Origin: Candidatus Buchananbacteria bacterium RIFCSPHIGHO2_02_FULL_39_17
Lineage (GTDB): Bacteria; Patescibacteriota; Patescibacteriia; Buchananbacterales; UBA6539
Direction: 5' to 3'
Length of the DNA stretch: 48,224 nt
Assembly (NCBI GenBank): GCA_001817425.1
Contig: MHII01000024.1
Coordinates: forward strand, 1-48,224
Each line of letters starts with the position of its first letter. Position 1 is the first letter of the stretch. Positions 5,152 to 5,909 of the stretch are shown here, piece by piece. The notes under the pieces were generated by a model. That model made no database searches. It was not told the origin of the DNA and saw nothing but the letters and a program-made list of their open reading frames with translations. The position numbers were made by a program, and so were the translations under genes.

Positions 5152-5246
5152 ACCCCTAATTATAGCGTCAAATGTAATAAAATGGAATAACTAAATTTTG
5201 GTCGGGTTGGCCCGCCTAAATTTCGGGGTAGCCCGCCTAAATTTAT

Positions 5247-5477
5247 TTCCTTACCGGAAACCCCGTGCGAGGTTTCCCGAGCACGGGGATAAATAGGCAA
5301 AATCCGATCCAAGGATTTTGTAAGTTAGCGCGAAACTTTGCTTATGTGTCATCCCGAATTTATTTCAGGATCCTTCATTGGGATGCCAAAACAAGTTCAG
5401 CATGACAATGGCGAGCGAGTAGCGGAGCAAAGGAAATTCCGCACGAACCGAAGGTGAGTGCGGGGAGGACGTCATTA
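5247..5477. repeat. Composite dispersed repeat, copy 2
   Basis: Direct-orientation near-copy of 2453-2704, lacking the extra terminator hairpin. Confidence 0.9.
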
Positions 5478-5563
5478 TTAGAAATAATCCTTAAAACCCC
5501 AGTAATGATTTACTTTTTTGAATCAGTAGATAAGACTTATAATAGATTGGAAAATTTTGGCGG

Positions 5564-5727
5564 GCGACCTCATCGTTCCGAACGATGCGCGCTAGCCCCG
5601 CCCGACTGCCTTGACTATCGGGGATCCGGGACTCGAACCCGGAATCTCACGCACCCGAAGCGTGCGCGATAGCCAATTACGCTAATCCCCGGCAGTCAAG
5701 GCGGGCGGGCAGCTGCGCTATACCCCG
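5564..5727 (-). pseudogene. Interrupted/truncated canonical tRNA-Pro(CGG)-like sequence surrounding the tRNA
   Basis: Minus strand 5727-5711 CGGGGTATAGCGCAGCT and 5595-5564 CTAGCGCGCATCGTTCGGAACGATGAGGTCGC match the 5' part, D-arm and anticodon arm of a typical bacterial tRNA-Pro; no T-arm follows directly. Confidence 0.5.
5619..5690 (-). tRNA. tRNA-Pro (anticodon CGG)
   Basis: Reverse complement ggggattagcgtaattggctatcgcgcacgcttcgggtgcgtgagattccgggttcgagtcccggatccccg: 7-bp acceptor (one G-T pair), D-arm with GG, cacgc-TTCGGGT-gcgtg anticodon arm, ccggg-TTCGAGT-cccgg T-arm; CCA not encoded. Confidence 0.85.
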
Positions 5728-5909
5728 AAATTTAGGCGGGCAAGCCGAAGTGTGCTCCGCCAGCTGGTGGACAATTATCCCGACGCTTCGGTCGGGATCC
5801 CGACTTCCTTATTTTTTATTAAAATCAGTACGTCGGGACGCTACACCTCGATCATAACCATTAACCTTTAACCAATAACAATTAACCCACTTACTTATTG
5901 TTAACTGTT

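Follow-up and report, generated by a model that had tools for sequence, protein, structure and literature searches.

The window (the whole stretch of DNA analyzed here, 48,224 nucleotides from the genome of Candidatus Buchananbacteria bacterium RIFCSPHIGHO2_02_FULL_39_17) contains only one tRNA recognized by ARAGORN and Rfam, an intact and presumably functional tRNA-Pro(CGG) located on the minus strand at positions 5618–5691 (RF00005, 60.4 bits, E 1.5e-12). Among the tRNAs found in the genome, Pro(CGG) is represented by this gene only. It forms the tip of an inverted repeat of approximately 20 nt, which lies inside the D-loop of a broken and different tRNA-Pro(CGG). The left arm of this repeat (GCCCGCCCGCCTTGACTGC) was identified at 5692–5710 and the right arm (TAGTCAAGGCAGTCGGGCGGG) at 5597–5617, both on the minus strand; the right arm is complementary to 5710–5692 and is paired with it in the minimum-energy fold. 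The sequences quoted in the original prediction were all located at their coordinates, and the inverted repeat it described around the inner tRNA is genuine: a folding energy of -88.5 kcal/mol was obtained for the 164-nt stretch, as compared with -68.6 +/- 4.2 kcal/mol in the case of shuffled sequences (z -4.7). A 17-mer from the left arm recurs at 6 exact sites in the genome and at 12 sites when up to 2 mismatches are allowed, and its reversed control at none.

The broken tRNA-Pro(CGG) enclosing this hairpin (level 1, the inner gene being level 2) is present on the minus strand in several pieces. Its 5' piece (CGGGGTATAGCGCAGCT, 5711–5727) includes 15 nt identical to the intact tRNA-Pro of a relative belonging to a different genus of the same family (G005), and the piece CGGGGTATAGCGCAG is found unchanged in the tRNA-Pro(CGG) at the syntenic locus in this relative. 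The second piece (5565–5596), which consists of the 3' side of the D-arm, the anticodon arm (CGG) and the variable region, shares 29/30 positions with the same gene in TAGCGCGCATCGTTCGG.ACGATGAGGTCG. Since the two pieces gave local alignment scores of 17 (5') and 29 (3') with the relative's tRNA-Pro and the maximum obtained with shuffled sequences was 17 (n=200), the match of the 3' piece clearly exceeds chance, while the 5' piece taken alone is at the shuffle maximum. The outer tRNA had been described as lacking a T-arm in the expected place, but the 3' end of the gene is present at 5230–5223. A palindromic element of about 333 nt devoid of any tRNA (CCCGCCAAAATTTTCC ... GGAAATAAATTTAGGCGGGC, 5231–5564, minus strand), as judged from the sequence, occupies the T-arm; its pair of ends recurs in solo elements at three other loci (L012, L015, and L020). 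Beyond this second palindromic element, the acceptor 3' strand and the discriminator (TACCCCGA, 5223–5230, minus strand) are complementary to the 5' CGGGGTA and complete the acceptor stem CGGGGTA/TACCCCG.

A pair of arms, both on the minus strand, in turn encloses level 1. The right arm (AATTTAGGCGGGCCAA, 5207–5222), which directly adjoins the acceptor strand, is complementary to 5743–5728, and the left arm (TTGCCCGCCTAAATTT, 5728–5743) is the complement of 5222–5207 apart from one extra base. In a self-comparison, positions 13–40 of the query matched 5202–5230 of the plus strand with 93% identity, and the end of this arm is also found in solo palindromes elsewhere (L009 and L013). Outside these arms, short decayed pieces of what looks like a third tRNA-Pro (level 0) were identified, again on the minus strand. 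The 5' piece (CGAGGTGTAGC, 5840–5850) aligns with the 5' piece of a broken outer tRNA-Pro in G005 (ATCGAGCTGTAGC), with a score of 13 which was equalled by shuffles and is weak alone; a piece running from the D-loop to the anticodon (AGCTGGCGGAGCACACTTCGG, 5745–5765) seems to correspond to AGTTGGTAGCGCGCACGCTTCGG of tRNA-Pro(CGG); and the 3' end (CCCGACCA, 5199–5206) is followed by AAATT as in G005, CCCGACCAAAATT at this end being common to both genomes. The sequence is therefore likely, but not certain, to comprise three nested levels, of which level 0 is the oldest. The original prediction correctly recognized a tRNA-Pro split in its D-loop around a second tRNA-Pro(CGG), the outer pieces matching an intact tRNA in a relative and the inner one being an intact gene, but overlooked the third level and the displacement of the 3' end, as well as the fact that this arrangement recurs at many tRNAs and in many genera.

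The genes on one side of the locus, including uppS, rarA, and a NUDIX gene, are collinear in the window and in G005 (eight pairs of ORFs, with 35–76% protein identity). Adjoining uppS, the relative carries an intact, divergent tRNA-Pro(CGG) of the outer type, against which the joined outer pieces of the window score 43 of 51, versus only 48 of 74 in the case of the inner tRNA. The intact outer-type copy for which relatives had been suggested as the place to look is thus present at this very site. The G005 gene is likewise flanked by fragments of a more ancient, broken tRNA-Pro. An Uhrbacteria genome (L111) also has a tRNA-Pro(CGG) beside uppS in the same orientation, which is intact, with an encoded CCA and no nesting. 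Since the tRNAs adjoining uppS are intact in both these relatives, the native tRNA appears to have been interrupted within its D-loop, a divergent tRNA with the same anticodon taking its place; of the readings put forward originally, this comparison of sequences favors the first, in which a tRNA-carrying insertion replaces a tRNA.

Similar nests were recognized, partly by eye, around many other tRNAs in the same genome: Thr(TGT), Thr(CGT), Val(CAC), Val(TAC), Leu(CAA), Leu(CAG), Arg(TCT), Gly(GCC), Ala(TGC), Ala(GGC), Ser(TGA), and Pro(GGG), the last of which, as read by eye, is a second three-level nest. The thresholds for flanking fragments and for arms were passed together in 11/39 of the contexts in this genome. 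Nests or clear remnants were also found in nine other genera (G005, G008, G011, G016, G020, G022, G023, G028, and G032), and the nested genera, including the present one, belong to nine families. Fragments of the tRNA itself scoring at least 14 were detected in 17.3% (5') and 15.7% (3') of the flanks of 248 contexts, as compared with 1.9 and 2.0% with non-cognate flanks and 0.1% with shuffles. The strong fragments (scores of at least 18) best matched the cognate amino acid in 71/93 cases, and many of the 21 others adjoin a neighboring nested tRNA. Inverted arms scoring at least 10 were present around 33% of the tRNAs of this genome versus 5% with swapped flanks, and 16.5% versus 1.2% in the relatives; they occurred in 42% of the contexts with fragments and 9% of those without. 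None of 28 contexts in Escherichia coli combined a flanking fragment with arms of at least 10, the fragments there being confined to the argQZYV array, where the repeats have no arms. The association between the absence of an encoded CCA and the nests is weak (Fisher p 0.03–0.2), and no claim is made about it.

The cleanest case (L207, in G032) consists of positions 1–36 of a tRNA-Ile, a 196-nt insert containing a complete identical tRNA-Ile, and then positions 37–77. The outer halves are identical to the inner tRNA (36/36 and 41/41), both tRNAs are intact, and the split (GA|T) lies between the second and third anticodon bases. A tRNA-Arg (L292) is broken at the same point (TC|G), the inserts at these two loci measuring 106–196 nt, which is too short for a tyrosine recombinase gene. 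At neither locus was any target-site duplication found: the outer halves are contiguous, with zero duplicated bases. In six of eight well-matched cases, the halves meet at most 2 bases from the point separating the second and third anticodon bases, and in three of them exactly there. More generally, the breaks fall within the anticodon loop in 11/43 of the 5' ends and 14/39 of the 3' starts, with others in the D- and T-loops. When the outer flanks were joined, ARAGORN recovered a tRNA-Ile(GAT), a tRNA-Arg(TCG), and, in the present genome, a tRNA-Ser(TGA); no tRNA was recovered from 11/16 of the joined outer sequences, as is to be expected if the outer copies are decaying. A single instance resembling a target duplication was noticed, in the present genome (L035, positions 1380–1520, contig C25), where a palindromic element precedes a tRNA-Met and the first 11 nt of this tRNA (GCCGAGGTAGC) are repeated on the far side. 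In G032, one small hairpin (CCCGCTCCGCGGGA) occupies the point where the T-loop is broken in remnants adjoining two different tRNAs (L195 and L265).

The ends of the arms are common to units carrying different tRNAs and to palindromes with no tRNA, across genera. L207 and L292, which belong to different families, have the same ends (CCCGCCTGCC / CCTGCCCGCC), and these also occur on tRNA-less elements of the present genome. In this genome, GCCCGCCCGCCTTGACT is found at 12 sites with at most 2 mismatches and CCTGCCCGCCNNNGCC in 14 copies, the controls giving 0 in both cases. The genome G030 contains almost as many exact copies of CCTGCCCGCCNNNGCC (13, control 0). As read by eye, the ends of the elements carry CTTG or TTCA/TTTA tags rather than GTAG/CGTC. 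The arms closest to the tRNA vary between units, and the cargo-bearing form is therefore not one uniform family. As regards a possible mobilizing enzyme, the single Y1_Tnp of the present genome has 21-bp terminal repeats which differ from the tRNA arms, and Y1_Tnp (Pfam PF01797) was absent from G020, G032, and G002, the first two of which hold clear nests; a Y1 transposase was therefore ruled out as the sole agent. The Y1 gene (L104, positions 1380–2190, contig C23) lies between perfect inverted repeats (AAAGGTGTCAGGAACCTTTTT), as in TIRtrons (PMC3733652). No match to the element was obtained in phages or viral contigs, and the only match in plasmids covered query positions 81–135, that is, the tRNA itself.

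The best explanation for these data, which we regard as probable, is that palindromic REP/MITE-like elements carry replacement tRNAs into the loops of tRNA genes and persist there if their cargo is cognate. Small mobile palindromes, GC-rich at their ends (for example, CCTGCCCGCC...GGCAGGCGGG and CCCCGCACC...GGTGCGGGG), would enter these loops, in the cleanest cases without duplicating the target, and in some of them an entire tRNA would take the place of the hairpin tip. Since the loss of a single-copy tRNA would be lethal unless the insert supplied a substitute, only cognate insertions would survive; the cargo would then take over as the functional copy, and its predecessor would decay around it. 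Repeated rounds would give nested structures resembling Russian dolls. In the window, a native tRNA-Pro(CGG), intact in the related genus, would have been interrupted within its D-loop, and a divergent tRNA-Pro(CGG) borne by an element would have taken its place and would now be the only functional one; this native tRNA was itself probably an earlier replacement.

The strongest rival explanation, given the identity of certain inner and outer copies, is local copying, whereby fold-back or template switching at palindromes would duplicate a tRNA with its flank into itself without any mobile element. Local duplication could also account for the identical copies in the recent cases L207 and L287, and the arms nearest to the tRNA are unit-specific inverted copies, the arm of the tRNA-Pro(GGG) even including acceptor-stem sequence. 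We nevertheless consider it unlikely, as the inner tRNA of the window is far from the outer one in sequence and the same ends recur around different tRNAs and on tRNA-less palindromes in several genera. Still less probable is an intron-like behavior in which the hairpin and its tRNA would be excised from the transcript and the outer halves ligated, leaving two working tRNAs. The preference of the breaks for loops, above all the anticodon loop, the arms which would hold the exons together, and the two intact tRNAs at L207 are consistent with such a process; the numerous joined outer sequences in which ARAGORN found no tRNA (11/16), the additional element of about 333 nt in the T-arm of level 1, and the fact that no ribozyme was detected by Rfam in 5200–5900 of the window (E up to 10) all argue against it. 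To our knowledge, no protein-spliced tRNA intron is known at such a position in bacteria.

Two kinds of artefact can be given even less credence. All the genomes are draft metagenome assemblies with many contigs, and palindromes and tRNA repeats may mislead assemblers; but the outer copies decay in grades, from 100% identity to barely recognizable with extra hairpins added, and outer remnants are common to two genera, which makes misassembly a very improbable source. The idea that GC-rich intergenic repeats simply resemble pieces of tRNAs draws on the fact that the flanks belong in part to dispersed repeats containing CCCGCC-like strings. Chance resemblance of this kind was ruled out by the shuffle and non-cognate-flank controls, and the perfect halves of L207, the syntenic intact counterpart and the E. 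coli contexts (0/28 combining a fragment with arms of at least 10) leave it with the lowest probability of all.

The proposed replacement of tRNAs by palindromic elements has affinities with several known systems. REPs, or tagged palindromic repeats, belong to RAYT or TIRYT systems involving Y1 HUH transposases (PMC3733652). The present elements resemble REP/RAYT systems in being short, GC-rich, dispersed palindromes with asymmetric end tags, a hairpin geometry and, in the clean cases, no target duplication, but they have no evident GTAG or CGTC tags and some genomes with nests lack Y1_Tnp. We know of no description of REPs carrying tRNAs or nesting in tRNA loops. The elements are non-autonomous like MITEs, with terminal inverted repeats and no coding capacity, and differ from them in their tRNA cargo, their cognate tRNA target and the lack of target-site duplication (L207 and L292). 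Tycheposons measure 4–200 kb, include a tyrosine recombinase and have a tRNA at their border. The insertions described here are similarly directed at tRNA genes and preserve the function of the tRNA, but they are gene-free, measure approximately 100–200 nt and contain a whole tRNA in the middle. Tycheposons are one type of tRNA-targeting integrative element (PMC10872708). Introns also interrupt tRNA loops, sometimes at the anticodon, those in bacteria being of group I and those in archaea and eukaryotes being protein-spliced (PMC4090602); by contrast, the present inserts hold a complete cognate tRNA, most of the outer tRNAs have decayed and no ribozyme was found in the stretch. Literature searches covering REPs, MITEs, tycheposons, and the nesting, interruption or splitting of tRNAs in CPR bacteria yielded no previous description, although a subscription paper may have been missed. 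The components, namely palindromic repeats and tRNA-targeting elements, are known in kind, and their combination is apparently new.

These findings suggest that, in this ultra-small bacterium and in nine or more related genera, small mobile hairpins have repeatedly broken a tRNA gene while supplying its replacement. If this is true, the smallest bacteria host a mobile element which breaks an essential gene and yet provides a spare. It is conceivable, although we put this forward tentatively, that these hairpins are a new class of minimal selfish elements, 100–200 nt of DNA with a tRNA as their only cargo, which target cognate tRNA loops, make the host dependent on them and drive successive replacements within the tRNA set across Patescibacteria. 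Transfer RNA genes are regarded as stable markers with vertical inheritance; in the present case, they seem to have been replaced repeatedly in place, and since every round leaves a fossil, the order of the replacements can be read from the DNA. Many tRNAs would also come from precursors with their ends locked in a long hairpin. The original suggestion that a tRNA might be released from the tip of such a hairpin holds as far as the geometry is concerned, the release itself being putative. tRNA scanners should be used with caution at these loci, as they report the innermost gene only. In the present genome as a whole, tRNA-Phe, Ile(GAT), Lys(TTT), Gly(TCC), Pro(TGG), and Thr(GGT) were not found; as several of them cluster in relatives (L073, L079, and L084), an assembly gap is likely. 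Another contig of this genome (C34, positions 1753–1814) carries a tRNA-like sequence with an enlarged D-arm, which scored 27.6 bits, just under the Rfam cut-off.
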